From Deltaproteobacteria bacterium (lineage in GTDB: Bacteria; Desulfobacterota; Desulfarculia; Adiutricales; Adiutricaceae), in the NCBI GenBank assembly GCA_031264145.1, contig JAISEK010000028.1:1-47669 (forward strand): a stretch of DNA of 47,669 nucleotides, written 5' to 3'. The notes under the pieces are model-generated. The model was given only the letters and a program-made list of their open reading frames with translations, was not told the origin of the DNA and did not search any database. Position numbers and translations under genes: made by a program. Shown one piece after another: positions 488-23,123 of this stretch. Every line of letters begins with the position of its first letter. The stretch's first letter is position 1.

Positions 488-2068
488 ATGGGAACACAGA
501 ATAGACGATTTGACTCTATTTGGCCTGTGAATAACCTTGAATCTGATCGGTTAGCCTTACAGGCTAGGTTGGATTCCGCCAATGACATTGAATATCGCAG
601 AAAACTTGGCCAATTTTCGACACCAACTTCATTGGCTAATGATATTATAACGTTTGGTTTATCTCACATAAAAAACATAAATCGTATTAATTTTTTAGAT
701 CCTGCGTTTGGAACTGGCGCATTTTATTCTGCTTTATTAAATAGTACTGATATATATAATATTAATGATGCTGTAGCAATTGAAATTGATAATACATATG
801 CTACTGAAACTGCTAAATTTTGGAATTCATATAATATTAAAATCATCAATGGTGATTTTACTAAATTATATCCATTTAAAACGTTTAATTTAATTATTTC
901 TAATCCACCATATGTGAGACATCACCTTATTGATTTTAAAGAAAAAAAAAGAATTAAAGATAAGACTAAAGCTGTCAGTGGGGTTGAACTTTCTGGTTTA
1001 GCTGGTTTATATTGTCACTTTTTATTGCAATCAATTCAATGGATGAGTGATGATGGTATCGGCGGCTGGCTGATACCTAGTGAGTTCATGGATGTTAACT
1101 ATGGAAAACCATTGAAAAATTATTTACTAAATAATGTAAATTTATTTAGAATACATAGGTTTAGTCCAGATAATATACAATTCAATGATGCCTTAGTGCC
1201 ATCAACTGTTGTTTGGTTTGAAAAAAGTGCACCAAAATCATCTAATATATTATTTTCATATGGTGGTTCTTTGAATTCTCCAGATATAGTTAAGGAAATA
1301 TCAATAAATGCACTTAAAAATGAATATAAATGGACAAGATTTCCATGTTTAAGTCAACGTAATTTTCAAATTTCAATTCCAAAAATAAAAGACTATTTTG
1401 AAGTAAAACGAGGAATTGCTACAGGCGGAAACGATTTTTTTATATTGGATCAAGAACGTATTGCTTACTTAGACTTGCCATTTGATGTTTTTAGACCAGT
1501 ATTACCCAGTGTCAGGTATGTGAAAAACAATGAAATTGAGGCCGATGAAAACGGAAATCCTGTATTGCTCAAACGGCTGTTTTTACTTGACTGCCGTTTG
1601 ACCGTGGAACAAATCAAAGAGCGTTATCCCAATCTCTGGTTATACCTTGAAACTGGCAAAAATACCGTCGCAAAAGGATATCTCTGTAAAAATCGTAAAT
1701 TTTGGTATCTTCAGGAACATAGAGATCCTCCAGTGTTTGTTTGCTCTTATATGGGTAGAATTACAAATAATAATTCAGCTTTTAGATTTATTTTGAATAA
1801 TTCAAATGCAATAATTACTAACTCATACTTAGGACTTTATCCTCATAATGATATTGATAAATTACTGATCTCTAATCCATCATTGAAACGTCTTCTCGGA
1901 AAAATGCTTAATGAATTGACTGCTGGGTCTTTGTTTGAGGAAGGACGCATTTATGGTGGAGGGTTACAAAAAATAGAACCAAAAGAATTATTGAATGTAA
2001 ACGTTCCGTTTATGCCTGATTTATTTGCTATTAAGTCAAATAAAGTTTTAAAAAATAGATTATTTTAA
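488..2068 (+). CDS. N6-adenine DNA methyltransferase (Eco57I/PstI-like class), apparently orphan
   Basis: A 526-residue protein starting at ATG 488 behind a purine-rich GGGATAGATAGGG stretch. It has the S-adenosylmethionine motif FLDPAFGTGAF (about residue 70), the catalytic NPPY motif in IISNPPYVRHH (about residue 140), and an N-terminal motif X-like segment (RRKLGQFSTPTSLA). A TaqI-C-like specificity region includes KRGIATGGNDFFIL. This order is that of gamma-class N6-adenine methylases of type II restriction systems. The expected role is methylating adenine in a short target site. No restriction endonuclease gene is next to it: the downstream DNA is very AT-rich and has no convincing ORF, so it may be an orphan or the remnant of a system. 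Its strongly AT-rich codon use contrasts with the GC-rich pab genes beyond and points to horizontal acquisition. Confidence 0.88.
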   Translation: MGTQNRRFDSIWPVNNLESDRLALQARLDSANDIEYRRKLGQFSTPTSLANDIITFGLSHIKNINRINFLDPAFGTGAFYSALLNSTDIYNINDAVAIEIDNTYATETAKFWNSYNIKIINGDFTKLYPFKTFNLIISNPPYVRHHLIDFKEKKRIKDKTKAVSGVELSGLAGLYCHFLLQSIQWMSDDGIGGWLIPSEFMDVNYGKPLKNYLLNNVNLFRIHRFSPDNIQFNDALVPSTVVWFEKSAPKSSNILFSYGGSLNSPDIVKEISINALKNEYKWTRFPCLSQRNFQISIPKIKDYFEVKRGIATGGNDFFILDQERIAYLDLPFDVFRPVLPSVRYVKNNEIEADENGNPVLLKRLFLLDCRLTVEQIKERYPNLWLYLETGKNTVAKGYLCKNRKFWYLQEHRDPPVFVCSYMGRITNNNSAFRFILNNSNAIITNSYLGLYPHNDIDKLLISNPSLKRLLGKMLNELTAGSLFEEGRIYGGGLQKIEPKELLNVNVPFMPDLFAIKSNKVLKNRLF

Positions 2069-2650
2069 TATTTATTATTTGAATATATTTATAATTCGAT
2101 TATAACTAAAATTATTATTTTATAACTCTTTTTATTTATATAATAAATATATTAATTTATTTATTTAACTATTATATATGTATTATGTAGTTAATTATTG
2201 ATTTTTTAATTTGGTATTATAATATTTTCTTGTATTTTAACGTATAATTTTTATTAAAATTATTAAAATATACTATTTATAATTTTCATAATGGTGATTA
2301 TAAATTAGTTATTTGCTATGTTATTTTTTATCCTAATGGTATTTTGTGGTTTGCTAATTTATATACTTATAAAACAACACCATCAATCTAGTACATTGTT
2401 TTTCTTGGAATGTCGGATAAAGTCAGCTCAATTTCCCCAGTATCAACGTTGGTCTGGTCAGATCAATCCGAGCTATCTACACCCGTCAAATCAAGAAAGA
2501 CAAGGTAATAGATCGAAACGCTGAACGCCGGTTATCGCGGGATCTGGATTAGCGATACCTTGAGGACGGCATCGGTCGCGGTAACTTTTGCCGACAGTGG
2601 CCAATGCCACTTGGGCGTTATCGAGGTATCCTGGGGATGGTAACGGCAAA
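2069..2650. other. AT-rich intergenic stretch containing one inverted-repeat element
   Basis: About 580 bases separate the methyltransferase stop from the pabC stop. The first 320 are extremely AT-rich and show no gene. The part near 2389-2510 is a short element repeated at 33208-33330 (listed separately). From about 2520 on the composition becomes GC-rich, and I see no gene there on either strand other than the end of pabC. Confidence 0.6.
2389..2510 (+). mobile_element. MITE-like element, copy 1 (about 122 bp, terminal inverted repeats)
   Basis: The left end TAGTACATTGTTTTTCTTGG and the inverted right end TATTACCTTGTCTTTCTTGA match at 16 of 20 positions. The whole segment is about 85% identical by eye to the reverse complement of 33208-33330, with a single one-base indel. 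Both copies are too short to encode a transposase, sit in AT-rich DNA, and begin with C-TAG, which suggests insertion at a CTAG/TA target as in IS630/Tc1-type elements (inference). A 68-codon ORF overlapping the element (2318-2524) is probably not a gene. Confidence 0.7.
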
Positions 2651-3310
2651 TCACGCCTTTAGCCCATCGTCCTTTGGGGCTGGCGGCATTAACGCAGGCC
2701 AGCCGTCTTTTGGGCCGATCACGTCGCCAGTCCCGATCCCTACCCGATCCTCCAAATCGATCATGGCGTTTATGAGCCATATCCGGCTGTACTGGCCCAG
2801 ATCCTGGACCCTGATGGCCCTGGCCCGCAGCACCCCCGCCGACATCAGCTTATCCCTCTTTACGCCAGGCAAAAGGCACCTCTCGGGAGTGAACAGTCCT
2901 TCCCCGCTTTCCAGGACCAGATTGGCTATGCTCGTGTCCGTCAGGAGGCCTCCCTGGACGACGATGATGTCGTCGGCCCGGCTTTTGGCCTTGAGCGAGT
3001 CTATGGCCGAGCGGTCCAGGAATTTGTGGCCATAGGCCAGATCCTTTCCCTCCACCAGCTCCAGGCTGTAGACCGCCTTTATGACGTATGGCTTTATCTC
3101 GACCGTTGTCGTCTCAAGCGAGTAGAGAAGCCTGGCCTTGAACAGGCCCGTTTCCGTCGGCGGCACTGGCAGGACAGCCTCCAGGTCGAAGCCCGGAGGT
3201 TGGCCGAAGAAGGCCCTGCAGGTCCTGAGGATCCTTTTCTGGTGCCAGAAAAGGTCCTGGTAGGCTCCGTCCAGGAGCCTGATGGATTCCAAAAAGACCG
3301 GCCCGGCCAT
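2651..3310 (-). CDS. pabC: class IV aminotransferase-like protein, probable aminodeoxychorismate lyase
   Basis: A 219-residue protein of the fold-type IV pyridoxal-phosphate (PLP) family. The likely PLP lysine is in YGHKFLDRSAI. The family landmarks DDIIVVQGG.LTDTSIANLV and the LLPGVKR motif follow in the usual order. Directly behind pabA and pabB, it most likely releases pyruvate from 4-amino-4-deoxychorismate to give p-aminobenzoate for folate synthesis. It is shorter than E. coli PabC (about 269 residues), with a compact N-terminus, as seen in other proteins found in pab clusters. ATG 3310 is preceded by GAAGGGAAGGG. The gap to pabB is 64 bases and holds a hairpin. Because aminotransferase class IV members are hard to tell apart, the substrate is inferred mostly from context. 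Confidence 0.8.
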   Translation of the reverse strand: MAGPVFLESIRLLDGAYQDLFWHQKRILRTCRAFFGQPPGFDLEAVLPVPPTETGLFKARLLYSLETTTVEIKPYVIKAVYSLELVEGKDLAYGHKFLDRSAIDSLKAKSRADDIIVVQGGLLTDTSIANLVLESGEGLFTPERCLLPGVKRDKLMSAGVLRARAIRVQDLGQYSRIWLINAMIDLEDRVGIGTGDVIGPKDGWPALMPPAPKDDGLKA

Positions 3311-3326
3311 CTACGCCCTTCCCTTC

Positions 3327-3348
3327 AAGGCCCGGTCGGGCCTTTTTT
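3327..3348 (+). terminator. hairpin with T-run, plus-strand polarity, inside the pab operon gap
   Basis: AAGGCCC (3327-3333) pairs with GGGCCTT (3338-3344) around a GGTC loop and is followed on the plus strand by six T then CGTTTT. It has the shape of an intrinsic terminator for plus-strand transcripts, although the surrounding genes run on the minus strand. On the pab mRNA it is a stem just upstream of the pabC ribosome site without a U-run. Confidence 0.4.
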
Positions 3349-3374
3349 CGTTTTCCCTGGACAACAGGTGGGCC

Positions 3375-4397
3375 TCAGCCATTCCTGCGGCTGGCCGCTT
3401 CCAGGTCGCCGGGCCGGAAGGGCAGGTATATCTTCTCCAGGGCCTCCAGGTACTCGTCCTCCATGGAACTGTAGGCGGTTATGCCGCCGCCGCTTCGGAA
3501 GAACATCTGGCCGTTTTCCTCCTCTATGTAGCGAATCAGGACCCCGGAGTCGAGCGTCCGGCCGTCATAGAGCCCGAAGACCCCGGTGTAGAAGCCCCTG
3601 GGGCCGTCCTCGGCCCGCCTTATTATGTCCAGGGTCGATTCCTTGGGCGCGCCCGAGACTGACCCGGCAGGCAGCATCCTGAACACGATGTCCCCCAGTC
3701 GGCCCTGGAAGCCGTCGCCCAGCCGGCCCCTTATGTCGGAGCTGACCTGAAGGATCTCCCGCTGGCTGGTCTTGACGCGGTCGATGTAGCGGTAGCGCTT
3801 GACCCTGACCGAGGATGCCGAAAGGCTCAGGTCGTTCCTCAGAAGATCGACCACAGTTGCGTGCTCGGCCGTCTCCTTGAAGTCATCGAGGATGGTCTTC
3901 TCGGCCTCTGGAACGTCGGCGTTTATGGTGCCCTTCATGGGGTAGGTGGAGATGGTCCCGTCGGCCGCTATGGCGACGAACCTCTCAGGCGAGAAGGAGA
4001 CGAAGCGGCCTGGCAGAAACAGCTGGAAGGGGGAATCGGCCAGGGAGAATATTTCCTCAAGCGACAGGTCGCAGGAAATAGGCGTCTTGATGGTCAGGTT
4101 GGCCAGGTATGAGTCCCCCCTGGACAGGCCTGTCTGGACCACCTCGAATTTCCGGCGGTAGGAGTCCAGGCTTTCGGGCTGTGGATCGATCCGCCCCTGT
4201 CCCATGGGAACGGCCAGCCCCTTCCGGGGATGGTTTCCCTGGCCCTGGATGGAGTAGAAGATCTCCCGGCCGCTGGCCGGGTCCTCGACCAACAGGCCGC
4301 AGGAGAGCTCGAAATCCACGGCGAACAGGAAGGGACGCCTTTCACCGCCCAGCAGGTTCATGCCCTGGCGGACTTTTTCGGGGCTTGTCGCGATCAT
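3375..4397 (-). CDS. pabB: aminodeoxychorismate synthase component I
   Basis: A 340-residue chorismate-binding enzyme, shorter than E. coli PabB (about 450) because the N-terminal domain is reduced. The C-terminal catalytic core is complete. It contains the conserved PMKGTI segment, the ETAEHATVVDLLRNDL segment, the GSVSGAPK motif and the final GFYTGVFG...VLIRYIE and GGGI block. It aminates chorismate to 4-amino-4-deoxychorismate using ammonia from PabA. ATG 4397 has a clear GGAGG seven bases upstream. The gene starts 16 bases after the pabA stop, as expected for a complex-forming pair. An anthranilate synthase role cannot be excluded from the family alone, but the PMKGTI-type motif (lysine as in PabB) and the pabC neighbour favour the folate branch. 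Confidence 0.9.
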   Translation of the reverse strand: MIATSPEKVRQGMNLLGGERRPFLFAVDFELSCGLLVEDPASGREIFYSIQGQGNHPRKGLAVPMGQGRIDPQPESLDSYRRKFEVVQTGLSRGDSYLANLTIKTPISCDLSLEEIFSLADSPFQLFLPGRFVSFSPERFVAIAADGTISTYPMKGTINADVPEAEKTILDDFKETAEHATVVDLLRNDLSLSASSVRVKRYRYIDRVKTSQREILQVSSDIRGRLGDGFQGRLGDIVFRMLPAGSVSGAPKESTLDIIRRAEDGPRGFYTGVFGLYDGRTLDSGVLIRYIEEENGQMFFRSGGGITAYSSMEDEYLEALEKIYLPFRPGDLEAASRRNG

Positions 4398-10073: not shown

Positions 10074-10715
10074 ATGCGGAGACTTCCAGTCTATTTGCTG
10101 ATTGACACGTCCGGCTCCATGTCGGGAGAGCCCATCGAGGCCGTGAAAAATGGCCTGCAGCTGCTGCATTCGGCCCTGAGGAAGGATCCCCAGGCCATGG
10201 AGACGGCTTTCCTGAGCGTCATAACGTTCAGCTCCAATGCCTCCCAGGTCATGCCCCTGACCGAGGTGGCCAGCTTCAGGCCCCCGAACGTCACCGCCTC
10301 CGGCGGCACCTCTCTGGGCGCGGCCCTCAAGCTGGTGGTAGATTGCGCCGACAAGGAGGTCAACAAGGGCACCTCAAGCGAGAAGGGCGACTGGAAGCCT
10401 TTGGTTTTTTTGATGACCGACGGCATGCCCACTGACAGTATCGATTCGGGCCTCAAGAAGTTCAAGGCGGCCAAGTGGGGCCTGGTCGTGGCCTGCGCTG
10501 CCGGCCATAGCGCCGACACCGCCGTGCTCCAGAAGATTGCCGGCGAGAACGTCCTCCTCCTTGACACCTGCGACTCGGCCAGCATCGCCGCCTACTTCAA
10601 GTTCGTTTCCTCCAGCATAGTCACCACCAGCCAGAAGATCGACTCCGGCGGTGGCGTTGACTCCATGTCAGAGCTTCCCCCGCCGCCCCCTGAAATCTCT
10701 TTGCTGAAGCCCTAG
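10074..10715 (+). CDS. terY: TerY-like vWA protein 1 (short form)
   Basis: A 213-residue von Willebrand A domain protein. ATG 10074 has GGAG five bases upstream. The metal-ion-dependent adhesion site is complete: DTSGS (residues 11-15), Thr79 in GGTSLGAAL, and Asp116 in LMTDGMPTD. The protein has no signal peptide or membrane segment, so it should be cytoplasmic. TerY proteins are scaffold-like partners of a PP2C phosphatase and a kinase in tellurite/stress-type gene clusters, and both occur downstream here. The protein ends in a Pro-rich tail ELPPPPPEISLLKP that recurs, slightly changed, in the next two vWA proteins. It is the most divergent of the three short copies. The 160-base gap to the next gene is AT-rich and may hold a separate promoter. 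Confidence 0.88.
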   Translation: MRRLPVYLLIDTSGSMSGEPIEAVKNGLQLLHSALRKDPQAMETAFLSVITFSSNASQVMPLTEVASFRPPNVTASGGTSLGAALKLVVDCADKEVNKGTSSEKGDWKPLVFLMTDGMPTDSIDSGLKKFKAAKWGLVVACAAGHSADTAVLQKIAGENVLLLDTCDSASIAAYFKFVSSSIVTTSQKIDSGGGVDSMSELPPPPPEISLLKP

Positions 10716-10875
10716 CCGTCATTATTTGAGTTGTTTTGGTTTGCCGCTGTGTTGTCCTGATATTCTGCGTTTTTGGTTGTTTGATTTATTCGAAATGCTA
10801 AGTTTGAAAAATAAATTTTTTGTTGTTTTGTCTTTAGTTTGCTTGATTCTTGTCTTTTCTTAAGAAGATAATCCC
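10716..10875 (+). other. AT-rich gap between terY copies 1 and 2
   Basis: T-rich sequence with no gene. It could carry a terminator or promoter, but no clear hairpin or -35/-10 pair stands out. Confidence 0.3.
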
Positions 10876-11520
10876 ATGAGAAAACTGCCCATCTATATAT
10901 TGATCGATACTTCCGGTTCCATGCGCGGCGAACCCATAGAGGCGGTCAAGGCGGGCCTGCAGTCGCTTTTCTCAGGGCTCAAGCGTGACCCCCATGCCTT
11001 GGAGTCGGTCCAGATCTGCGTCATCACCTTCGATCGCGAGGCCAAGGTCATTTTGCCCATGTCCGAACTGGACAACCTGAGGATGCCCGTGATCCCGCCC
11101 CTGGAGTCCTCGCCCACCAACATGGGCGAGGCCCTGGAGCTGATGTGCCAGCTCTATTCCAAGGATGTCGTCAAGACGTCGCCCACTGCCAAGGGCGACT
11201 GGCTGCCACTGGCCGTGGTCATGACCGACGGGAGCCCTTCCGATACCGGTCTTTTCAACGTCATGTGCGAGAAGCTCTCCTCCCCTTCCTCCATCTACCG
11301 CTTTGCCCGCATAATCGGCTGCGCCGCTGGCCCCAAGGCCAAGACCGAGCCTCTCAAGAGGTTCTCCACCGACGTTGTTTCCCTGGAAACCATGGACAGC
11401 AACAGTTTTGCCAAATTTTGGGCCTGGGTCTCCCAATCCTTCACCAAGCACAGCCAGGGCACCGACATGGCCATGGATGAGCTGCCCCCGCCGCCTGTTG
11501 AAATCAAGATAGCCATTTGA
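10876..11520 (+). CDS. terY: TerY-like vWA protein 2 (short form)
   Basis: A 214-residue vWA protein with MIDAS residues DTSGS near the start, Thr in SSPTNMGEAL, and Asp in VMTDGSPSD. Over its full length it is very similar to the protein that follows at 11552, with long stretches of near-identical DNA, so the two look like a recent tandem duplication. It ends in DELPPPPVEIKIAI, the shared Pro-rich tail. A cysteine sits in RIIGCAAGPKAKTEPL. No export signal is present. It probably works as a binding partner in the kinase/phosphatase module downstream. ATG 10876 lies after AAGAAGATAATCCC, so the ribosome site is weak. Confidence 0.88.
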   Translation: MRKLPIYILIDTSGSMRGEPIEAVKAGLQSLFSGLKRDPHALESVQICVITFDREAKVILPMSELDNLRMPVIPPLESSPTNMGEALELMCQLYSKDVVKTSPTAKGDWLPLAVVMTDGSPSDTGLFNVMCEKLSSPSSIYRFARIIGCAAGPKAKTEPLKRFSTDVVSLETMDSNSFAKFWAWVSQSFTKHSQGTDMAMDELPPPPVEIKIAI

Positions 11521-11551
11521 TTAGCCCATTACACGTCAGCCATAATTTTTA

Positions 11552-12190
11552 ATGAGAAAACTGCCCATATACATATTGATCGACACTTCCGGCTCCATGC
11601 GCGGCGAGCCAATAGAGGCCGTCAAGACGGGCCTGCGCTCGCTCTTCTCCAGCCTTCGTCGCGACCCCCAGGCCATGGAGTCGGTGCACATCTGCGTCAT
11701 CACCTTTGACCGGGAGGCCAGGATCATCTTGCCGTTGACCAGGCTCGATCGGCTCAAGCTGCCCGAGATTCCTCCCCTGGAGTCATCCCCGACCAACATG
11801 GGCGAGGCCTTGGAGCTGATGCTGAGGTGCTACGGCAAGGAGGTCGTGGTTTCCCCGGACGGGCAGGAGGGCGACTGGCTGCCCCTGGCCGTGGTCATGA
11901 CCGACGGGAGCCCTTCCGATACCGATCTGTTCAACAGGATGTGCGTCCTCCTGTCTGGCCCGGCATATCCCTTTGCCCGCATCATCGGCTGCGCCGCCGG
12001 CCCCAAGGCCAAAACCGAGCCCCTCAAGAGGTTCTCGTCCGATGTCGTCATTTTGGAGACGATGGACAGCAACGGTTTCCTGAGATTCTGGGAGTGGGTC
12101 TCCCAGTCTTTGGCCCAACAAAGCCATGATTCGAGCGATTCTCTTGACGAGATGCCTCCGCCACCGATGGAAATCAAGATTGCCTTTTAA
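11552..12190 (+). CDS. terY: TerY-like vWA protein 3 (short form)
   Basis: A 212-residue vWA protein, tandem paralogue of the preceding gene, only 31 bases after it. The MIDAS residues are intact (DTSGS; Thr in SSPTNMGEAL; Asp in VMTDGSPSD). It ends with DEMPPPPMEIKIAF, again the Pro-rich tail. No recognisable Shine-Dalgarno sequence precedes ATG 11552, so translation may depend on the upstream gene. The spread of differences relative to copy 2 (middle region around YGKEVVVSPDGQEG) suggests specialisation of one surface while the metal site and the tail stay fixed (inference). Confidence 0.88.
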   Translation: MRKLPIYILIDTSGSMRGEPIEAVKTGLRSLFSSLRRDPQAMESVHICVITFDREARIILPLTRLDRLKLPEIPPLESSPTNMGEALELMLRCYGKEVVVSPDGQEGDWLPLAVVMTDGSPSDTDLFNRMCVLLSGPAYPFARIIGCAAGPKAKTEPLKRFSSDVVILETMDSNGFLRFWEWVSQSLAQQSHDSSDSLDEMPPPPMEIKIAF

Positions 12191-12247: not shown

Positions 12248-15229
12248 ATGACAATAGAGATAAATAATTCAAATTTTTCTGATTTAAAAGATATAATATT
12301 ATTCTGTAGCAAATTTTTATCGACTGATTCTGATATTAATGCTAAAATAAAAAATATAGTTAGCCAAGATTTTTTAAATATATATAATAAATCTACTATT
12401 TTTATAAATAATGTTAATAATAATGATTGCCTTGATGATTATAGAAATTTTATAGATGAGCATAATTTGAATAGTTTTTCTGGTGCTACATTGACTGATG
12501 AAGTAATTATTACTATTATATCTAATTATTTTTACAAAAATTTGCTAAAATATAAAATAAAATATTCGAATTTAATTCAAAATAGTGTGCTAAAATTTCA
12601 ATCACAATCGCAATCTATTGATGATACTTTAGTAATTAATAATATTGATTCTAATACTAAAAATAAATTTAATTCTACCTTTTCAATGGAAGATTCTACA
12701 TCTGCAAGCGAAATGAGGAAAGTGCATTGTCCTGAAACTACGGATACCGTTGACCAGGACAGCATGACAGGATCCGACCCCCTGTCTTCCGTAAGCGTTA
12801 CCAATAAAGTCCAACACGCCCAGCCAGATTCATCTTCTCAGGCTGCCTCCATGACTCAAAGCCAATTTGATAGACCCTTGGCTGCCTCTTCTGGCCTCGT
12901 TGTTCCAGAGACAAAACCGTCTTTAAGAGAATCTGGCCAGTTTGACTCAGCCGATCCTGTTACTCTGGAAAACAAAAGCGACCAGCTGGCGGCCGTGCCT
13001 CAGGCCCTTGGCGGGCCATTCCTCCCGGTTGGCCAGATCCAGGCGGATACGGGCACCATGGGGGACCTACCGGCGGCGGGTCCACCGGCCCTGGGCGAGG
13101 CATCCTTCCCGGTTACCCAGTCGGATACGGGCACCATGGGGGATCAGCCGGCGGCCGGTCCTCAGGCCCTGGGCGAGCCATCCTTCCCGGTTGGCCAGAA
13201 CCAGTCGGATACGCGCACCAAGGGGGACCAGCCGGCGGCCGGTCCTCAGGCCCTGGGCGAGCTATCCTTCCCTGTTGGCCAGACCCAGTCGGATACTGGC
13301 ACCATGGGGGACCAGCCGGCGGCCGGTCCTCAGGCCCTAGGCGAGCCATCCCTCCCGGTTGTCCAGACCCTGCCGGAGAATGGCTCCCTTGGGGACCAAC
13401 CTGGGGCCTGGCCTCAGGCACGTGGTGAGCCATCCCTCCCGGTTGGCCAGACCATGCCAGGGAATGGCCCCCTTGGGGACCAACTTGGGGCCGGGCCTCA
13501 GGACTCGGGCAACAAATCCATCCAAGGAGGCCAACCAGATCCTAGGACGGACCCCATTGAGGACCAGCCGGCGAGCGGCCCTCAGGCTTCGGGCGGCGGC
13601 CAATCCATCCAAGTAGGCCACCCAGATCCTAGTACTGACCCCATTGGGGACCAGCCGGTGGCCGGTCCTCAGATTGCAAGCGAACAATTCCTGCCAGTAG
13701 TTGATCAGAACGTCGCAGAGACTGCCCCCCTGGGGGACAGGCAGCTTGTTTTTGAGTCTGGTATCCCTGGACCAAACGTGGTTCTGGCAGATTTTGATAT
13801 AAATAGAAAAAACCAGATAGTCAATTTAGAAAATGATGAAAAATTCAATATTGATACTCCTGTTATTTATTTGGATGCTTTGTGTTTTCCGCAAAATAAT
13901 TCTCAAAAATTATATACAAAAGATATAAATGAGATATTTAAAACGTTTGATGATATTTTTGTGCAACGTCTTGGAGATAATATTGATCTGACTTATAAAT
14001 TTCCTAATCATTTTTTTATATTAAAATCAATTCCTAATAAATTTTTAAAAGATATATTAATGTTAGATATTAATGCTAATAAGCATGATTTATTTTTAAA
14101 TGGTGTGACAACTAGAGATTATGATGGAAATATAATTTTTAGGTTAAAAATAAATGATATGGCGGAATTTTATGAAATTGCAAAAACAATGTATATTCCT
14201 CCAGACCCCAAAACTTTATGGAAAGACTTAAAGGTAGATGATTTTGAAGGTTACGAATATCTTGATGAGGCTTATGACCATATTGACCTGAAAGATATTG
14301 AAAAAACCTTGATCGTGGCCAGTTGCCGGGGGCGCAGTCACGCCCATGTCGGCAAGCCCAGGGACGACAACTACAGATTCGCCTGCAATCTCGAGTCTGG
14401 TTGGAATATTTGCGCTGTCGCCGATGGGGCCGGTAGCGGCAGGTTTTCGCGGAAGGGCTCCGATCTGGCCTGTGCCACGGCGATAGACACGTGTAAGGCT
14501 CTTTTTGAAAAAGAGGATTTGGCCCCTCAAATCTCTGCTGACATTAAGAGGCTATATGATTTTAGAGCCAATGTCTCTTCTCATCCATCTAACAGAAGCA
14601 GTGAAGAAGAATTAAAATTTAGAAATGAACTTATTTTAGATAAATTATTTCATCGTATGGTATATGACACATATAATAAAATTCATGATGAATATAAACT
14701 TAAGAAGCAAGAGCCCAAATATGATAAACTAGAATTGTCAGCCTATCATTCGACCCTTCTCTTTTTGGCCTTCAAGAAGTTTGATTTTGGATATTTCTTC
14801 GGCTCATATTGGATTGGCGATGGGGCCATGCTCATATACAATGTGGAAGGCAAAGGCCAGGTTGAGATCTTGGGCGTCCCTGATTCCGGCGATTACGCCG
14901 GCCAGACCAGATTTTTGACCATGATCTCTGAGATTGAGGCGGAAAAGATCAAAAAGAGGACGCGCTTTACTTTCGCCAGGTCCTTTGAGTCAATCATTAT
15001 GGCCACGGACGGCATAACCGATGCCTTTTTCCCCTCCGAGGAAAGTACCCTCTCTGGGGAGAATTGGATCGAGTTCTGGACCAAGACCCTCAGGGAAGGG
15101 GAGTATGCGTGCCCTGTACTTTTTGATCCCAGCGTTGCCCCTGGCGAACAGGCCAAGGCCCTCCGCGGGTGGCTTGATTTTTGGTCCAAAGGCAACCATG
15201 ACGATAGGACTATACTGTTAATAAAGTAA
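12248..15229 (+). CDS. large PP2C-type Ser/Thr phosphatase with long N-terminal extension and internal repeats
   Basis: A 993-residue protein. The C-terminal third, from about residue 680, is a PP2C domain with the family motifs in order: RDDN, VADGAGSGRFS, a STLLFLAF strand, WIGDGAMLIY, IIMATDGITDAF and HDDRTILLI. All metal-binding aspartates appear present. This is the phosphatase of a TerY-P triad and should oppose the kinase encoded next. The N-terminal 160 residues are Asn/Ile/Lys-rich and unrecognised. Residues about 250-500 are about nine Pro/Gly-rich repeats of roughly 26-29 residues. Residues about 510-680 form a further unrecognised, AT-coded domain. Base composition switches several times along the gene. 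No membrane segment was seen. ATG 12248 follows the weak GGTGTGTA. Typical PP2Cs have about 250 residues, so roughly 680 are extra. Confidence 0.85.
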   Translation: MTIEINNSNFSDLKDIILFCSKFLSTDSDINAKIKNIVSQDFLNIYNKSTIFINNVNNNDCLDDYRNFIDEHNLNSFSGATLTDEVIITIISNYFYKNLLKYKIKYSNLIQNSVLKFQSQSQSIDDTLVINNIDSNTKNKFNSTFSMEDSTSASEMRKVHCPETTDTVDQDSMTGSDPLSSVSVTNKVQHAQPDSSSQAASMTQSQFDRPLAASSGLVVPETKPSLRESGQFDSADPVTLENKSDQLAAVPQALGGPFLPVGQIQADTGTMGDLPAAGPPALGEASFPVTQSDTGTMGDQPAAGPQALGEPSFPVGQNQSDTRTKGDQPAAGPQALGELSFPVGQTQSDTGTMGDQPAAGPQALGEPSLPVVQTLPENGSLGDQPGAWPQARGEPSLPVGQTMPGNGPLGDQLGAGPQDSGNKSIQGGQPDPRTDPIEDQPASGPQASGGGQSIQVGHPDPSTDPIGDQPVAGPQIASEQFLPVVDQNVAETAPLGDRQLVFESGIPGPNVVLADFDINRKNQIVNLENDEKFNIDTPVIYLDALCFPQNNSQKLYTKDINEIFKTFDDIFVQRLGDNIDLTYKFPNHFFILKSIPNKFLKDILMLDINANKHDLFLNGVTTRDYDGNIIFRLKINDMAEFYEIAKTMYIPPDPKTLWKDLKVDDFEGYEYLDEAYDHIDLKDIEKTLIVASCRGRSHAHVGKPRDDNYRFACNLESGWNICAVADGAGSGRFSRKGSDLACATAIDTCKALFEKEDLAPQISADIKRLYDFRANVSSHPSNRSSEEELKFRNELILDKLFHRMVYDTYNKIHDEYKLKKQEPKYDKLELSAYHSTLLFLAFKKFDFGYFFGSYWIGDGAMLIYNVEGKGQVEILGVPDSGDYAGQTRFLTMISEIEAEKIKKRTRFTFARSFESIIMATDGITDAFFPSEESTLSGENWIEFWTKTLREGEYACPVLFDPSVAPGEQAKALRGWLDFWSKGNHDDRTILLIK
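12990..13746 (+). repeat. about nine tandem coding repeats (roughly 78-87 bp) inside the PP2C gene
   Basis: The encoded unit is close to QSDTGTMGDQPAAGPQALGE followed by PSFPVGQ. The first five or so copies are nearly identical, and the later ones drift (e.g. TDPIGDQP). Units are 26 to 29 residues. The DNA is GC-rich and near-identical between copies, so copy number probably varies among strains. Confidence 0.85.
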
Positions 15230-15273: not shown

Positions 15274-16761
15274 ATGATGACTTTAATTTCCGCAACTGCC
15301 GTCGATGGGTCTAGCGTGCAGTTCATAAAAAAAGATCCCATGCAAGGCGGGGTCAAGGATGTCTATTTTTCACCCAAAAAGGATTACGTCGTCGCCTTCT
15401 TCCGAAAGAAGCTGGATATCCAGGGCAAAGAACGCTTGGAACGACTCGTCGGGAAGTACCGCGAGGGCATTTTTGGGCAGCAGGGTTCAGATTTTTGGCG
15501 GGATCTCTACCGTTGGCCCGAGAAGATAGTCGAGCATGGCGGCTTGACAGGGATCGTGGTCCCGACTTACCAGTCAAAATTCTTCTTTGGTCGCGACACG
15601 GATCGCGACGGGGCCGAGAAAGAGGGAAAATGGTTTGCCTCGGCCAAGAATTTCAACAAATACGTCCCGCCAGGCGACAAGGGCGACCTCTTGGGCTTCA
15701 TCAGGATCTGCATCAACCTCAGCCGGGCCGTCCGAAGGCTCCATGCGGCCGGTCTGGCCCATTCGGATCTTTCCTACAAGAACTGCCTGGTAGATCCGGC
15801 TTCCGGTTCAGCCTGCATCATCGATATTGACGGCCTGGTCGTGCCCAATCTTTTCCCCCCTGATGTCTTGGGTACCCCTGACTTCATAGCCCCCGAGGTC
15901 GTGGCCACCTCCAGGCTCAACAAGACCGATCCTGGCCGCAAGTTTCCTTGCCGTGAAACTGACCAGCATGCCTTGGCCGTCCTGATTTACCAGTATCTCT
16001 TCCATCGCCATCCACTGCGGGGCAAAAAGGTCCACAGCCAGGACAGCGTCGAGCAGGAGTTTTTGGAAATGGGGGAGCGGGCCCTCTTCATCGAGCACCC
16101 GACCGACCATTCCAACCGCTTCGTTATACAGCCCAACGACAAGGATTTCCTGCCCTGGGTTGACACCCAAAAGCTCCCGTTCACCCTTATGGGGCCGTAT
16201 CTCAAGGAACTTTTCCTACAGTCCTTCGTCAATGGCCTGCACTCTCCACAAGAGCGTCCCAGCGCGGACGACTGGGAGGAGGCCTTGGTCAAGACCTCCG
16301 ATTTGCTCCAGCTCTGTCCAAACTCCTCCTGCGTCAAGGGCTGGTATATCTTCGATCCTATTGCCAAGACTTCAAAATGCCCTTACTGCGGCACTTCCGT
16401 CAAGGGCCAGGTCCCGGTTTTGGACTTCTATTCCAGCCATGACGGCACGAACTTCCGTCGGGAAAACCGCCGTCTGGTCGTCTTTTCCGGCCAATACCTT
16501 TATCTTTGGCATGTCATGAGAAACATGTTTCCCAATGAGAAGCTCACTGAGGCCGATAAAAAGGCGGTCGGGTACTTCTCGTTCTTCAAGAATAAGTGGG
16601 TCTTCGTCAATCAAACCCTCAACAGCCTTTTTCTCATCCAAAACGACAACAGAAAGCCGATCCAGATTGGTTCCTCCGTGGATCTGATTGATGGCTCCCA
16701 GCTTCTTCTCTCGACCGAAAAGGATGGCCGGATCGCCAGCGTCTCGCTGGTCAATGTCTAG
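15274..16761 (+). CDS. protein-kinase-like protein with zinc ribbon and FHA-like tail (TerY-P triad kinase)
   Basis: A 495-residue protein. The kinase part shows the catalytic loop HSDLSYKN (residues 163-170, a variant of HRDxKxxN with Asp165 and Asn170), the metal-binding IIDIDG (Asp184 or Asp186, replacing DFG) and a PDFIAPEV activation-segment end near 203-209. The glycine loop is not canonical. A four-cysteine zinc ribbon follows (Cys348, Cys353, Cys369, Cys372). The last 100 residues (GYFSFFKNKWVFVNQTLNSL... GSSVDLIDGSQLLLS) look like an FHA-type beta fold that could bind phosphothreonine. The neighbours (PP2C 44 bases upstream, TerY genes on both sides) make it the kinase of the triad. 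Start: ATG 15274 or the adjacent ATG 15277. AAGAGG lies close upstream, better spaced for the second. Confidence 0.8.
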   Translation: MMTLISATAVDGSSVQFIKKDPMQGGVKDVYFSPKKDYVVAFFRKKLDIQGKERLERLVGKYREGIFGQQGSDFWRDLYRWPEKIVEHGGLTGIVVPTYQSKFFFGRDTDRDGAEKEGKWFASAKNFNKYVPPGDKGDLLGFIRICINLSRAVRRLHAAGLAHSDLSYKNCLVDPASGSACIIDIDGLVVPNLFPPDVLGTPDFIAPEVVATSRLNKTDPGRKFPCRETDQHALAVLIYQYLFHRHPLRGKKVHSQDSVEQEFLEMGERALFIEHPTDHSNRFVIQPNDKDFLPWVDTQKLPFTLMGPYLKELFLQSFVNGLHSPQERPSADDWEEALVKTSDLLQLCPNSSCVKGWYIFDPIAKTSKCPYCGTSVKGQVPVLDFYSSHDGTNFRRENRRLVVFSGQYLYLWHVMRNMFPNEKLTEADKKAVGYFSFFKNKWVFVNQTLNSLFLIQNDNRKPIQIGSSVDLIDGSQLLLSTEKDGRIASVSLVNV

Positions 16762-16852: not shown

Positions 16853-17863
16853 ATGAGACGGCTTCCAGTATATCTGCTTTTGGATTGTTCCGAGTCGATG
16901 ATTGGCGAGCCTCTGGATGCGGTTGAAGACGGCGTCCGTTCACTTTTGTCCGCGCTCAGGCGCAATCCCTATGCCCTGGAGTCGGTTTCCATAAGCGTAA
17001 TCACCTTTGACGTCAAGGCCAGGGTGGCCATTCCCTTGACCGAGGTAGGCATGTTCAGGCCGCCGAGCCTCTCGGTCAAGCCAGGGACATCGCTGGGGGC
17101 GGCCTTGGGCCTGCTTCGCGATTCCATCGAGAGGGATCTGGTCAAGACCACGTCGGAGACCAAGGGTGACTTCAAGCCCTTGGTCTTCATTCTCACCGAC
17201 GGCCAGCCAACCGACGACTGGAAAAGGCAGGCCACGCTAATCCGGACGACCAGGCCCAGCATGGCCAATATTTATTCCATTGGCTGCGGTGAGGAGGTCA
17301 ATTTTGAGATCATGGGCCAGATAGCCGATGTCTGCCTCCGCGCCAGCGACTTGTCGGCCGATGCCATATCCAAGGTTTTCGTCTGGCTAAGTGCCTCGGT
17401 GGGCTCATCAAGTGCCAAGGCCGACGACGAGCCGATGCTCCTGGCCAACGTCCCAATGGCCGATGGCCTAGAGGTGGTCGACCTGGCCAAGCCGCCCAAT
17501 TTCGCCGAGAAGGCCTGGGTTTATTTCCACACAGTCTGCACTTCCTCCAAGAAGTTCTTTCTCGCCCGCTACCGCCTGGATCCCAAGACCAAGTCCTACG
17601 TCGCCGCGGATGCCTTTCCCCTGCCCGAGGATTTTTTTTCCGAGGGTACCCCACAGGCACCGACCATATCCTCCAGCAAGATTGATGGCCAGGTCCCTTG
17701 CCCATTTTGCGGGGCCCGCTATTCTTTCATGTGCGACAAGTGCAAGACCCTGAATTGTTTTAGCGGTAAATCTTCCAGCAAAACTGTTACTTGCGCCAAA
17801 TGTGGCACTGTGCTGAGGCTTAACTTCGTCGACGCCATGGATATCGGTGGTTCAGCCGGTTAG
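16853..17863 (+). CDS. terY: TerY-like vWA protein 4 with C-terminal Cys-rich metal-binding tail
   Basis: A 336-residue protein. The N-terminal vWA domain has DCSES in place of DTSGS (the DxSxS metal pattern is kept), Thr in PGTSLGAAL and Asp in LTDGQPTDD. After a spacer rich in Ala and Ser, residues about 225-275 form a beta-rich segment (VYFHTVCTSSKKFFLARYRL). The tail carries paired cysteines CPFC...CDKC...C...CAKC, expected to bind zinc or another metal. This two-domain form corresponds to the longer TerY type in Ter systems. The gene lies 91 bases after the kinase gene, and TTGGAG precedes ATG 16853. It is paralogous to the following gene. Confidence 0.87.
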   Translation: MRRLPVYLLLDCSESMIGEPLDAVEDGVRSLLSALRRNPYALESVSISVITFDVKARVAIPLTEVGMFRPPSLSVKPGTSLGAALGLLRDSIERDLVKTTSETKGDFKPLVFILTDGQPTDDWKRQATLIRTTRPSMANIYSIGCGEEVNFEIMGQIADVCLRASDLSADAISKVFVWLSASVGSSSAKADDEPMLLANVPMADGLEVVDLAKPPNFAEKAWVYFHTVCTSSKKFFLARYRLDPKTKSYVAADAFPLPEDFFSEGTPQAPTISSSKIDGQVPCPFCGARYSFMCDKCKTLNCFSGKSSSKTVTCAKCGTVLRLNFVDAMDIGGSAG

Positions 17864-17937
17864 TTTTCATATTTTGGAAGCTATATCTTCAAATAATTAA
17901 TTTGTATCGCATTTTCATATGCTTATTGGGTTCCATC

Positions 17938-18954
17938 ATGACACGACGCCTTCCCGTATATCTTTTGCTGGATTGTTCCGAATCCATGGTCGGCGAGCCG
18001 CTGGACCTGGTCGAGGCAGGGGTCCACACCATGATAAGTGGCCTGAAGCGCAATCCCTACGCCCTGGAAACCGTCCACATGTCTATAATCGGCTTCGACG
18101 CCAAGGCCAGGGTCATCATGCCCCTGACCGAGGTCAACAAGGTCAGGCCGCCGGTCCTGTCAATCCGTCCAGGCACGGCCTTGGGGGCGGCCATGGATCT
18201 TCTGGCCCAATCCATAGGCAGCGACCTGGTCAAGTCCACCAAGGAATCCAAGGGTGACTACCGCCCCCTGGTCTTTATCCTTACCGATGGCCAGCCGACC
18301 GACGATTGGGCGGAGGCCGTCAATCGGATACGAGGCATAAAGCCCCAGGTGGCCAACATTTACGCCATAGGCTGCGGCGGGGATGTTGATTTTGAGACTT
18401 TGGCCAAGATTGGCGACGTTTGCATCCACGTCAAGGACATGAACACCGAGAGCATCGGCAAGCTGTTCGTCTGGCTCACGGCCAGCGTCCAATCCAACAG
18501 CATGGCCCCGGATGAGCCGGTCAACCTGGCCAAGGCCATCCCCATGGAGCCAGGGATGGAGATCGTGGACAAGCCTCCCAAGTTTACCGACCAGAAGTCG
18601 CGTCTGTTCGTCCACGTCACCTGTCGCAAGACCCGCAAGCCCTATATGATTGTCTACAGGCGCTCGCCCCACGGAGGCGACTATCACAGCCAGATGACAG
18701 TGCCCCTGCCGGCTGATTTTTTTAGCGATGGGGCCAGAAAATCTTCCCCGATAAACGAACAGGACCTGAATGACATCCCTCCGTGCCCCTTTTGCCAGTC
18801 CGATGGGTTCGGCAAGTGCGGGTTCTGCCACCATCTGTTTTGCATTGACGAGGAATCGGCCGAGGAACCATTCCTCGTCTGCCCTGTCTGTGAGACCAGG
18901 CTCACGGCCAGCGACTCGGGAGCTGCCTTCAGTTTTGACGGCTCCGTGGGGTAA
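17938..18954 (+). CDS. terY: TerY-like vWA protein 5 with C-terminal Cys-rich metal-binding tail
   Basis: A 338-residue paralogue of the preceding protein, with the same DCSES, PGTALGAAM and LTDGQPTDD metal-site segments. The tail has CPFC...CGFC...C...CPVC. I take ATG 17938 (MTRRLPVYLLLDCSES) because it lines up with the other TerY starts. The frame extends to a TTG at 17902 without a ribosome site. The presence of two adjacent long TerY proteins, with three short ones on the other side of the phosphatase-kinase pair, suggests a multi-component assembly (inference). Confidence 0.87.
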   Translation: MTRRLPVYLLLDCSESMVGEPLDLVEAGVHTMISGLKRNPYALETVHMSIIGFDAKARVIMPLTEVNKVRPPVLSIRPGTALGAAMDLLAQSIGSDLVKSTKESKGDYRPLVFILTDGQPTDDWAEAVNRIRGIKPQVANIYAIGCGGDVDFETLAKIGDVCIHVKDMNTESIGKLFVWLTASVQSNSMAPDEPVNLAKAIPMEPGMEIVDKPPKFTDQKSRLFVHVTCRKTRKPYMIVYRRSPHGGDYHSQMTVPLPADFFSDGARKSSPINEQDLNDIPPCPFCQSDGFGKCGFCHHLFCIDEESAEEPFLVCPVCETRLTASDSGAAFSFDGSVG

Positions 18955-19185
18955 TCCCAGGCCGCCGTCAATTTTTCTTTCGGCTTGATTATTTTCTCTC
19001 TTAGATTACAATAAATCGCTTGCTGCCAATGGAAGCTTTTTTGAGTCTATCGTTTGTCGGGACCCACAAACCTTCAATTGCTTCCCGGCGGCTGGCGCAT
19101 AATTCCCTGGCCATCCGATTATTATTATCCATCCAAGAGTTTTACCACTCGACAAATAGCCACAAATCAATCGAGGTGTTTTGGC

Positions 19186-22100
19186 ATGACCACCGGCAAC
19201 CCCACAGAACCACGACGCGACAAGCCAGAAGTAGTCGGCCTTACGGCCGACGAGGTTTTGGAGAGCAGGCGACTCCATGGGGCCAACGTCCTTACCCCGC
19301 CGCCAAGGGACCCTTGGTGGAAACTGTATCTTGAGAAATTTGAGGATCCCATCATCAGGATTCTGTTGGTGGCCGCGGTCATAGCCATCCTGGCCGGGAT
19401 TATCGAGGGCCAGTTCGCCGAGGGAATTGGCATAATCATTGCCGTCTTTCTTGCCACCACCTTGGGTTTCATCAACGAGTACAAGGCCGGGCAGGAGTTC
19501 GACATATTGAACAAGGTTTCGGACGATGACCCTGTAAAGGTCATCCGGGATGGGGCCTATCGGTCAGTCCCCAAGAAAGACCTTGTGGTCGGCGACGTGG
19601 TGGCCCTGGAGCAGGGCGAGGAGATTCCGGCCGATGCCGAGATCGTCACTGCCGTGGCCTTCCAGGTCAACGAGGCCTCGCTGACGGGTGAGTCGCTCCC
19701 GGTGACCAAGAAGCCCAAGTCCGACGTGCCCGAGGCCCTGACCCTGGCCTACCCCCGCCATCAGGTGCTGAGGGGCACGTTTGTTTCCGATGGCCGGGCC
19801 CTGGCCAGGGTCTCCACGGTAGGGGACGACTCCGAGATAGGGAAGACCGCCAGGGCCGCTGCCGAGGAGACTGAGACCGTGACCCCCCTCAACCGCCAGC
19901 TGGCCCGCCTGGGGCAACTGATCGGGGTCTTTGGCTTTGCCATAGCCTTTTTGATCTTTTCCGCGTTGACCATCCGCTCCGCCATCAACGGCGACCTGGA
20001 TGAACACGTGACTATCCCGACCACGGCCACGGCGGCCGCCCCGACCCTGGAGGAGCAGGACCAGGCCTTGCAGGAGCGGGGCATTGTCCCTTCCCAGGCC
20101 ACAGGCATGTATCAGCTCAAGTGGCGTGACGGCAAGTGGGAATTCATTTTCCCCTTGTCTGGCGGGCAGGTCTATTTCATGATTGTCGCCTTTCTCTCTT
20201 TGGCCGTGGCCTTGGTCCGTATCTGGGTGCCAGTGGTTTTTGACGCCTGTGAGCTCGCGGGCCGAAAAAGGCCAGAGAACGAGTGGCTCGACTCAGAGGG
20301 CCTAAAACCTTGGCTCCAGGCCATTATAGCGGGCGGTGCCCTTTTTGCCGTGGCCTTGACCGCCGGTCTGGGCCTGGGGATCCTCCATGGCGGTCCCTCG
20401 ACCTGGCTGCCGCTGGCCACCTCCCTTTCCCTGCTTCGTTTCTTTATGGTGGCAGTGACCATAATCGTCGTGGCCGTGCCCGAGGGCCTCCCGATGAGCG
20501 TCACCCTCTCCCTGGCCTACTCCATGCGCAAGATGACCGCCGCCAACAATTTGGTCAGGCGCATGCATGCCTGCGAGACGATCGGGGCCGCCACGGTCAT
20601 CTGTTCCGACAAGACCGGCACTCTGACAATGAACCAGATGAAGGTTTCTTCTTTTGTCTACTCGACTCTTCCCAAGGACCAGATGCCCACTGGCCTGGAG
20701 CTTGAGTTGGCGTCGGAGGCCCTGGCCGCCAATTCCACGGCCAACCTGATGCCGGACGAGCGGGGACTCCTGAACAAGCCACTCGGCAATCCAACCGAGT
20801 CCGCCCTTTTGATGTGGCTCGAGGAGAATGGCCAGGGCTACCTGGACATCAGGACAGGCTTCGGACTCAAGGGGCAGCTGACCTTTTCCACCGAGCGCAA
20901 GTACATGGGCACAGTCGGCCAAGGTGTCCTGAAGGACGGCCTGACGCTGCACGTCAAGGGTGCCCCTGAGATTGTCCTCTCCAAGTCGGCCTTCAGGCGT
21001 TTGCCTGACGGCCAGGCCGAGCCCTTGACCCAGGCCGTCAGGGACGGGATAATCGGAGCCCTCAAGGCCGAGCAGGAACGCGGCATGCGGACCCTGGGAC
21101 TGGCCATGAAGATTGTCCCCACCAACGCGAGCGAGCTTAGCCAGGACGAGATCATAGGCCTGGTCAACGAGAGCCAGCTTATCTTCCTCGGGTTCTTCTC
21201 CATCGCCGATCCCGTCAGGCCCGAGGTTCCCCCGGCCATCAGGACCTGCTCCGGGGCCGGGGTCAGGGTCAAGATGGTCACCGGCGACAACCAGGCCACC
21301 GCCTGCGAGATTGGCGCGCAAATCGGCATCCTCCAGCCCGGAGAGCCCATTGCCGGCCAAATTGTCACCGGCGACGAGTTCATGGCCATGGATGACGAGG
21401 CGGCCCTCAAGGCGGTAAAGGACCTGTCGATCATGAGCCGGGCCAGGCCTTTGGCCAAGCAGCGCCTGGTTACCCTTCTCCAGAAGTCCGGGGAGGTGGT
21501 GGCCGTGACCGGTGACGGCTCCAACGACGCCCCGGCCCTGAACCACGCCGACGTGGGCCTGGCCATGGGAATTACGGGCACCTCAGTGGCCAAGGAGGCG
21601 GCGGACATCATCCTCTTGGACGACTCCTTCGCCAGCATCGTCCAGGCGGTAATGTGGGGCCGCTCCATCTACGCCAACATCCAAAAGTTCATCCTGTTCC
21701 AGCTGACAATCAACGTGTTGGCCCTGGGAGTGGCCCTGCTGGGGCCTTTCCTGGGTATCCAGCTTCCGCTGACGGTGACCCAGATGCTGTGGGTCAACCT
21801 TATCATGGACACCTTCGCCGCCCTGGCCCTGGCCAGCGAGCCGCCTGACTGGGGGCTGATGAGAAAGCCGCCCAGGGACCCGGAGGCCTTTATCGTCACC
21901 CCGTCCATGGCCAAGTTCATCTTTTCCGTTGGCGGCGTTTTCCTGTTCATGTTCCTGGTGCTTGTCCTCTGCTTCAGGGAGTCATTCCCCATGAACGTGG
22001 AAACTCCCGTTGGCCTCCACAATCTTTCGGTGTTCTTCACGACCTTTGTCTTTCTCCAGTTCTGGAACCTCTTCAACGCCAGGATGCTGGGGCGGTCTAC

Positions 22101-22320
22101 CTCGGCCATCGCGGGGCTCGGCCAAAGCAAGATGTTCCTTCTGATAGTCCTGGTCATCGCCATCGGCCAGATACTGATGACCCAGATAGGCGGCCAGGTG
22201 TTCAGGACCATGCCCTTGACCTGGAAGGAATGGCTGGCTATTATCGTCCTTACCTCGCCAGTGCTTTGGATCGGCGAGCTGGTCCGTTGGCGCCAGCGGA
22301 CCGGCCTGGCCGCCGGCTAG
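19186..22320 (+). CDS. PMCA-type Ca2+-transporting P-type ATPase with extra membrane insertion
   Basis: 1044 residues from ATG 19186, with GAGGTG eight bases upstream. The frame is open to 19054 but the extra part has no coding character. Family motifs: TGES (167-170), PEGLP in M4 (432-436), DKTGTLT with phospho-Asp475, TGDGSNDAPAL, and WVNLIMDTFAALALASEPP in M6. These mark the P2B (plasma-membrane Ca2+ ATPase) subgroup, which pumps Ca2+ out of the cytosol. Ten usual membrane helices are visible. Between M3 (about 243-263) and M4 (about 417-440) lie some 150 residues with two additional hydrophobic segments (about 329-352 and 379-400), which is longer than normal. It follows the terY genes and precedes terD, an association reported for Ter systems, and fits a Ca2+-linked stress role. 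No eukaryotic-style calmodulin tail is seen. Confidence 0.9.
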   Translation: MTTGNPTEPRRDKPEVVGLTADEVLESRRLHGANVLTPPPRDPWWKLYLEKFEDPIIRILLVAAVIAILAGIIEGQFAEGIGIIIAVFLATTLGFINEYKAGQEFDILNKVSDDDPVKVIRDGAYRSVPKKDLVVGDVVALEQGEEIPADAEIVTAVAFQVNEASLTGESLPVTKKPKSDVPEALTLAYPRHQVLRGTFVSDGRALARVSTVGDDSEIGKTARAAAEETETVTPLNRQLARLGQLIGVFGFAIAFLIFSALTIRSAINGDLDEHVTIPTTATAAAPTLEEQDQALQERGIVPSQATGMYQLKWRDGKWEFIFPLSGGQVYFMIVAFLSLAVALVRIWVPVVFDACELAGRKRPENEWLDSEGLKPWLQAIIAGGALFAVALTAGLGLGILHGGPSTWLPLATSLSLLRFFMVAVTIIVVAVPEGLPMSVTLSLAYSMRKMTAANNLVRRMHACETIGAATVICSDKTGTLTMNQMKVSSFVYSTLPKDQMPTGLELELASEALAANSTANLMPDERGLLNKPLGNPTESALLMWLEENGQGYLDIRTGFGLKGQLTFSTERKYMGTVGQGVLKDGLTLHVKGAPEIVLSKSAFRRLPDGQAEPLTQAVRDGIIGALKAEQERGMRTLGLAMKIVPTNASELSQDEIIGLVNESQLIFLGFFSIADPVRPEVPPAIRTCSGAGVRVKMVTGDNQATACEIGAQIGILQPGEPIAGQIVTGDEFMAMDDEAALKAVKDLSIMSRARPLAKQRLVTLLQKSGEVVAVTGDGSNDAPALNHADVGLAMGITGTSVAKEAADIILLDDSFASIVQAVMWGRSIYANIQKFILFQLTINVLALGVALLGPFLGIQLPLTVTQMLWVNLIMDTFAALALASEPPDWGLMRKPPRDPEAFIVTPSMAKFIFSVGGVFLFMFLVLVLCFRESFPMNVETPVGLHNLSVFFTTFVFLQFWNLFNARMLGRSTSAIAGLGQSKMFLLIVLVIAIGQILMTQIGGQVFRTMPLTWKEWLAIIVLTSPVLWIGELVRWRQRTGLAAG

Positions 22321-22544: not shown

Positions 22545-23123
22545 ATGGCTGTGACGTTGGTTAAGGGTGGCAACATATCCCTGAGCGGGGAGGTGCCCGG
22601 TCTGAAGTCGGTTTTCGTCGGCTTGGGCTGGGATTCCAGGGAGACTGAAGGAGATGATTTCGACCTGGACGCCTCGGCCTTTCTTCTAAAGGCCGATGGC
22701 AAGGTCAGGGGCGATGAGGATTTCATATTCTACAATAATCTCACTTCCAGTGACGGCTCGGTCGAGCACACGGGGGACAATCTTGTCGGCGGCAGCGAGG
22801 GCGACGACGAGGTTATCAAGGTAAATCTTGAGGCCGTGCCTGATGTCATCCAAAAAATATCTTTTACCGTCTCTATCTACGATGCCGAGGCCAGAAGACA
22901 AAATTTTGGCATGGTTTCCAATGCTTTTATCCGTATTGTTAATCAATTGGATAATAAAGAGATAGTAAAATTTGACCTTTCTGAAGACATGAGCACGGAA
23001 ACAGCCATGATATTTGGCGAGATATACCGCCACAAAGGCGAGTGGAAGTTTAAGGCCGTGGGACAGGGCTACGTTGGCGGTCTGGGTGCCTTGGCCCAAC
23101 GTTTTAATGTTGATATCGAATGA
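22545..23123 (+). CDS. terD: TerD-family Ca2+-binding stress protein
   Basis: A 192-residue TerD/CABP protein, the usual full length. It starts with MAVTLVKGGNISL, then the hallmark VGLGWD and DDFDLDASAFLL, FYNNLTSSDGSVEHTGDN, and GDDEVIKVNLEAVP. The acidic clusters are the Ca2+ sites known from this family. GGAGG nine bases before ATG 22545 is a good ribosome site. The last half turns AT-rich (22890-23000) while keeping the family sequence. TerD proteins are cytoplasmic, and genetic work in other bacteria ties them to tellurite and envelope stress tolerance, though the mechanism is unknown. The neighbouring Ca2+ ATPase and TerY modules support a joint role. No terB or terC gene is in the window. 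Confidence 0.93.
   Translation: MAVTLVKGGNISLSGEVPGLKSVFVGLGWDSRETEGDDFDLDASAFLLKADGKVRGDEDFIFYNNLTSSDGSVEHTGDNLVGGSEGDDEVIKVNLEAVPDVIQKISFTVSIYDAEARRQNFGMVSNAFIRIVNQLDNKEIVKFDLSEDMSTETAMIFGEIYRHKGEWKFKAVGQGYVGGLGALAQRFNVDIE

Follow-up and report, generated by a model that had tools for sequence, protein, structure and literature searches.

A probable TerY-P type PP2C phosphatase with an unusually elaborate head and repeat linker in a bacterial Ter operon

Results

A PP2C gene lies among vWA, kinase and TerD genes

The window, by which we mean the whole stretch of 47,669 nucleotides that was analysed, carries a PP2C phosphatase gene that consists of a single unbroken 993-codon frame (Table 1). 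The only Pfam match within this frame is PP2C_2 (residues 694-948, E=5.9e-34). Three vWA genes are located directly upstream, and two genes that combine vWA and TerY_C are located downstream. The zinc ribbon of the adjoining kinase is represented by the Cys4 motif only, with no Pfam match above cut-off, and an OB-fold sought by Pfam in this kinase was not matched. Two of the adjacent vWA genes (10876-12190) have near-identical starts and similar lengths, and look like a tandem duplication.

Table 1. Features of the PP2C gene and the surrounding operon (positions in the window).
Feature	Position	Strand	Basis
Three vWA (TerY-like) genes (span 10074..12190)	10074-10715, 10876-11520, 11552-12190	+	Pfam
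TerY-P type PP2C phosphatase gene (probable), 993 aa	12248..15229	+	ORF, Pfam, context of relatives
AT-coded orphan head at the N terminus, about residues 1-150	12248..12697	+	GC at fourfold-degenerate sites 0.14; open frame compared with shuffles
Non-repeated Ser/Thr/Gln-rich linker, residues 151-244	12698..12979	+	Sequence, fourfold-site GC
Nine tandem repeats, 26-29 aa, 84-nt period	12980..13735	+	Disordered-type composition, 79% P/G/A/S/T/Q/D/E
Predicted Ig-like (He_PIG/cadherin-like) beta domain, residues 539-650	13862..14197	+	AF2 model with seven strands; profile matches
Family signature PPDPKTLWKDLK after the Ig-like domain	14198..14233	+	Across 90 sequences, one P and the W do not vary
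PP2C catalytic domain	14318..15229	+	Pfam, fold match, conserved acidic positions
AT-coded segment within the PP2C domain, residues 766-830	14543..14737	+	Fourfold-site GC 0.21; GC3 comparison in family genes
Partner Ser/Thr kinase, C-terminal Cys4 zinc-ribbon-like motif (CPNSSC...CPYC)	15274..16761	+	Pkinase 2.1e-8; motif by reading
Two vWA + TerY_C metal-binding genes	16853..18954	+	TerY_C 5.6e-10 and 2.6e-7
P-type cation ATPase of Ter operon	19054..22320	+	Pfam match, context of relatives
TerD	22545..23123	+	7.6e-85

The TerY-P triad was reportedly named in a 2012 analysis. As published, it comprises a vWA protein, a PP2C and a zinc-ribbon kinase (PMC11090510; PMC4978471). The locus examined here presents an adjacent TerY-like vWA gene, a PP2C-like enzyme and a Ser/Thr kinase with a zinc-ribbon-like Cys4 motif, and the same cluster includes the TerD-family and TerY_C genes expected of a Ter operon. 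Similar kinds of genes surround relatives of this PP2C in Deltaproteobacteria, Planctomycetes, Bacteroidetes and others, as judged from 80 environmental loci, and kinase and vWA genes adjoin the PP2C gene in almost every locus long enough to judge. Because the operon holds the complete triad along with genes for TerD, TerY_C and the ATPase, and because the loci of relatives do likewise, the best explanation as a whole, and one that we hold to be quite probable, is that the gene encodes the phosphatase member of a TerY-P triad and that this triad is part of a Ter operon for stress response. The preliminary description had overlooked this context. PADLOC yielded no match to the PP2C, NCBIfam offered no model for it, and the phages searched in following up this gene gave no match. 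Many of the nearest relatives are metagenome bins labelled Deltaproteobacteria, and some others in the list are insect-gut symbionts such as Azobacteroides; we infer that the host is a termite-gut bacterium.

An Ig-like domain and the PP2C domain form the core of the family

Alignment of the PP2C relatives reveals a common core that extends from about residue 530 to the end of the protein. Within the catalytic part, the metal-binding acidic residues of PP2C (PPM) enzymes are present, and positions D706, D707, D726, D858, D879, D921, D985 and D986 are each invariant in 69 sequences, the window's included. The predicted model matches solved PP2C structures with E-values down to 1e-8 (foldseek). 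PP2C activity is therefore likely, as judged from the fit of the model and the invariance of the acidic positions.

A second PP2C gene of one relative (G021; L030, ORF 1501-3609, minus strand) carries CRGRGTS in place of DGAGS and TEGAA in place of TDGI, with an intact copy (L015) nearby on the same contig; from its sequence, this paralogue is probably an inactive pseudophosphatase. Another relative's gene (L107/L028/L023, 349-1004) is split over two frames, and is probably either a broken gene or an assembly error. Two relatives also have tandem repeats in a C-terminal extension past the PP2C domain, at 587-696 aa (L016) and 900-959 aa (L019) of their PP2C ORFs.

The preliminary description had raised the possibility that the region following the repeats is a new domain, and this suggestion was rejected. 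The region is an ordinary part of the family core, found in all PP2C relatives whose upstream sequence is long enough to judge (90 genes from several phyla, including the window's), and even in Chryseobacterium proteins of 450 residues that have no repeat linker. An AlphaFold model built from 69 sequences (mean pLDDT 90.9) places seven strands at residues 539-650, ahead of the PP2C domain. With the full model, the best 50 foldseek matches listed are PP2C chains; the beta fold of the Ig-like domain is a predicted one. Profile comparisons point to He_PIG and cadherin-like Ig domains: in hhalign, this region pairs with true He_PIG domains of the host's bacterial family at a probability of 81% (E 1.3e-5), and an Ig profile searched against the PDB recovers SraP cadherin-like domains (5e-6 across two repeats, with a weak best single-domain i-Evalue of 0.039). 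A sequence search of the PDB with a further profile, A1, gave no chain. Pfam He_PIG does not rise above cut-off in the window's protein, and reaches a sub-threshold E<1 in 5/90 relatives (best 0.0017). For this reason we term the predicted beta domain Ig-like, by resemblance, rather than a member of He_PIG. This part of the family core is called by neither Pfam nor NCBIfam.

The N-terminal head is an open, AT-coded orphan

Of the two domains portrayed earlier as unrecognised, the one after the repeats resembles a common fold; for the N-terminal head, the portrayal was borne out. The head has no Pfam match, and a search of 37 genomes of the host's family gave no homologue at E<0.001. A single-sequence AF2 prediction of the head alone was uninformative (pLDDT 37). 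Neither a signal peptide nor a transmembrane stretch is apparent in its sequence. We considered whether the AT-rich head might be a frame artefact, and rejected this on the basis of the stop count and dinucleotide shuffles: the frame contains 0 in-frame stops against 16 expected, and 0/2000 shuffles remain open, which shows that the segment is truly coding.

Several relatives carry heads at the same place that are likewise AT-coded and open (0 of 500-2000 shuffles open per gene tested). Even where the PP2C parts of two genes share 57-65% identity, their heads are not securely alignable (best E 0.003). In Bacteroidetes relatives, the head and linker are shorter but retained. In two Planctomycetes relatives, the position of the head is taken by a strongly hydrophobic, membrane-like stretch, which fits an anchoring role.

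The linker keeps its position and composition, but not its sequence

The nine repeat units (residues 245-496) have lengths of 28, 26, 28, 28, 28, 28, 28, 29 and 29 residues. The flexible Pro/Gly repeat linker proposed previously is supported, and its composition is of the disordered type. The near-identity ascribed to the repeats holds for units 1-5, which are 79-92% identical in DNA sequence, but not for units 6-9, which mostly share 56-83% identity with other units. Because dN and dS between pairs of units are often similar, constraint on the repeat sequence appears to be weak. The array was found nowhere else in the genome and is thus single copy.

Tandem arrays occupy the linker in nine genes of the host's family, the window's included, with periods of 33, 42, 45, 60, 69, 84, 84, 108 and 132 nt, all multiples of three. 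No similarity was detected between these arrays, and so it is the repeat unit itself that is replaced between species. The earlier proposal of repeat gain and loss is supported by these signs. As read from the sequences, the linker keeps its position and composition, not its sequence. Elsewhere in the window, a Sel1-repeat protein (33869-34900) carries a 108-nt tandem array.

Base composition at synonymous sites probably follows protein conservation

The alternation of AT-rich and GC-rich stretches along the gene, as first described, extends to synonymous sites. Fourfold-degenerate positions have a GC of 0.14 for residues 1-150, 0.40 for 151-243, 0.67 for the repeats, 0.29 for 512-690, 0.74 for 691-765, 0.21 for 766-830 and 0.75 for 831-993. 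Since the mosaic is present at synonymous sites, it is more than an effect of amino-acid content. Adjacent operon genes have an even fourfold-site GC of 0.75-0.85 (TerD 0.64), with no comparable mosaic. As background we took 130 ORFs of 300 aa or longer, sampled from 20 stretches of this genome (285 kb) and from the window; the internal GC3 range of the PP2C gene, 0.72, is the third-largest among them (median 0.225; two ORFs wider). A mosaic of this size is therefore rare within the genome, but not unique.

The strongest mosaic in this sample belongs to a double-AAA protein (L128, 3685-5937), in which an AT-coded N-terminal part (GC3 about 0.1) precedes GC-rich AAA domains in a pattern that resembles that of the PP2C gene. 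In a HipA gene (L127, 17806-19335, minus strand), the first third is GC-rich and the HipA_C part is AT-rich, such that the conserved domain is the AT-rich one, opposite to the trend.

Within the family, the first PP2C segment exceeds the Ig domain in GC3 in 20/21 genes, and exceeds the PP2C insert in 19/21. In the window's gene, GC3 is 0.18 in windows of low conservation versus 0.65 in those of high conservation. The nearest relatives show less of this contrast and distant ones almost none, and the corresponding link is weak in the other operon genes (r 0.04-0.14 over windows). The most likely explanation is that the mosaic tracks protein conservation and is not a recent patchwork. Catalytic segments would retain the GC-ending codons of the genome, and the fast-diverging head, Ig domain and insert would drift to AT. 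Codon selection, and gene conversion restricted to conserved stretches, are established ideas, and the mosaic is as expected of either one. The repeats, which are GC-rich and poorly conserved, are an exception to this explanation; their Pro/Gly/Ala content may account for this in part, and self-recombination is possible.

Discussion

Proposed function and alternative explanations

The gene belongs to a known system, with an unusually elaborate head and linker. Judging by its sequence and neighbours, the protein is most likely a cytoplasmic Ser/Thr phosphatase that opposes the adjacent kinase, with the head and linker serving as a tether. The metal-dependent phosphatase would reverse phosphorylation by the zinc-ribbon kinase, with vWA/TerY proteins, TerD complexes or the kinase itself as candidate targets, and the pair would switch the Ter machinery on and off. 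The Ig-like domain would dock the phosphatase to its partners, and the head would act as a tether or docking module joined through the intrinsically disordered linker. The length and composition of the linker, rather than its sequence, would matter, and its repeats would arise and be replaced via slippage or unequal recombination.

The abrupt steps at synonymous sites, which a few other genes of the genome also show (e.g. those for HipA and an AAA protein), could also be read as marks of a recent chimera, in which a native, GC-rich phosphatase acquired foreign AT-rich pieces, namely the head, the Ig domain and the PP2C insert. However, relatives in different phyla have homologues of the Ig domain and of the PP2C part, and both the Ig domain and the insert fall below the catalytic part in GC3 in 19-20 of 21 family genes. 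The mosaic is therefore old or recurrent, and recent chimerism was rejected as the source of the whole pattern; we regard this scenario as improbable. The head is the only part that could still be foreign.

For the head and linker, two explanations other than a tether deserve consideration. The head might serve to recognise a phage or stress cue and evolve quickly under diversifying selection, with the triad acting against phages at this locus. Heads that defy secure alignment next to well-conserved PP2C parts would agree with this proposal, as would the anti-phage activity of a TerY-P system in Pseudomonas (PMC10889362). However, an unconstrained tether would change just as fast, the locus is of the TerD/ATPase stress type, and PADLOC has no match to this PP2C, and so we consider the proposal unlikely. 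Its extended form, wherein AT-coded heads are arms-race recognition modules on a linker tuned by copy number, rendering the TerY-P switch cue-specific in close relatives, appears no less doubtful. Slightly less plausible still is that the head and linker are non-functional padding kept by drift. The linker sequence is indeed not conserved, and dN is near dS between many repeat units, but in all genes tested the heads keep their frames open against a strong AT bias, and Bacteroidetes relatives retain both elements in shorter form.

Comparison with known systems

PP2C members of the TerY-P triad in Ter operons have the same neighbours as the gene examined here (TerY-like vWA, zinc-ribbon kinase, TerY_C, TerD and P-type ATPase). 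The window's protein differs by its head and repeat linker, which add about 500 residues, whereas Chryseobacterium members comprise about 450 residues in total. A PP2C from enterobacterial plasmids (Klebsiella, Escherichia, Salmonella, Enterobacter) is 28% identical over 98% of residues 503-993 (E 3e-35), a query that includes the Ig-like part. The plasmid gene, Ig-like region included, is present on many plasmids (thousands).

The Ig-like domain has in common with He_PIG (PF05345) and the cadherin-like Ig domains of SraP (PDB 4m03) the core motif GLxFD...I.GTP...G and a predicted beta fold. Unlike these domains, it is below the Pfam cut-off, resides in an apparently cytoplasmic enzyme, and is followed by PDPKxLW. 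CoCoNuT-associated and stand-alone anti-phage TerY-P modules (PMC11090510; PMC10889362) possess the same vWA, PP2C and kinase triad. However, the locus described here has a TerD-type neighbourhood, and no McrBC/CoCoNuT genes were recognised within the window. Its kinase carries a zinc-ribbon-like Cys4 motif instead of the kinase-OB-fold fusion of the stand-alone, Gao-type systems.

These findings place the gene in a signalling set that is known but poorly understood biochemically, and define the family core as Ig-like plus PP2C. The linker offers a natural series in which nine genes from a single bacterial family have unrelated repeat units at one spot, flanked on one side by conserved folded parts. 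Models that explain bacterial GC content by gene conversion or codon selection could be tested on the synonymous mosaic that follows conservation. At the start of the window, an Eco57I-type DNA methyltransferase gene (488-2068) is AT-rich (GC 0.31) and foreign-looking against its GC-rich surroundings.
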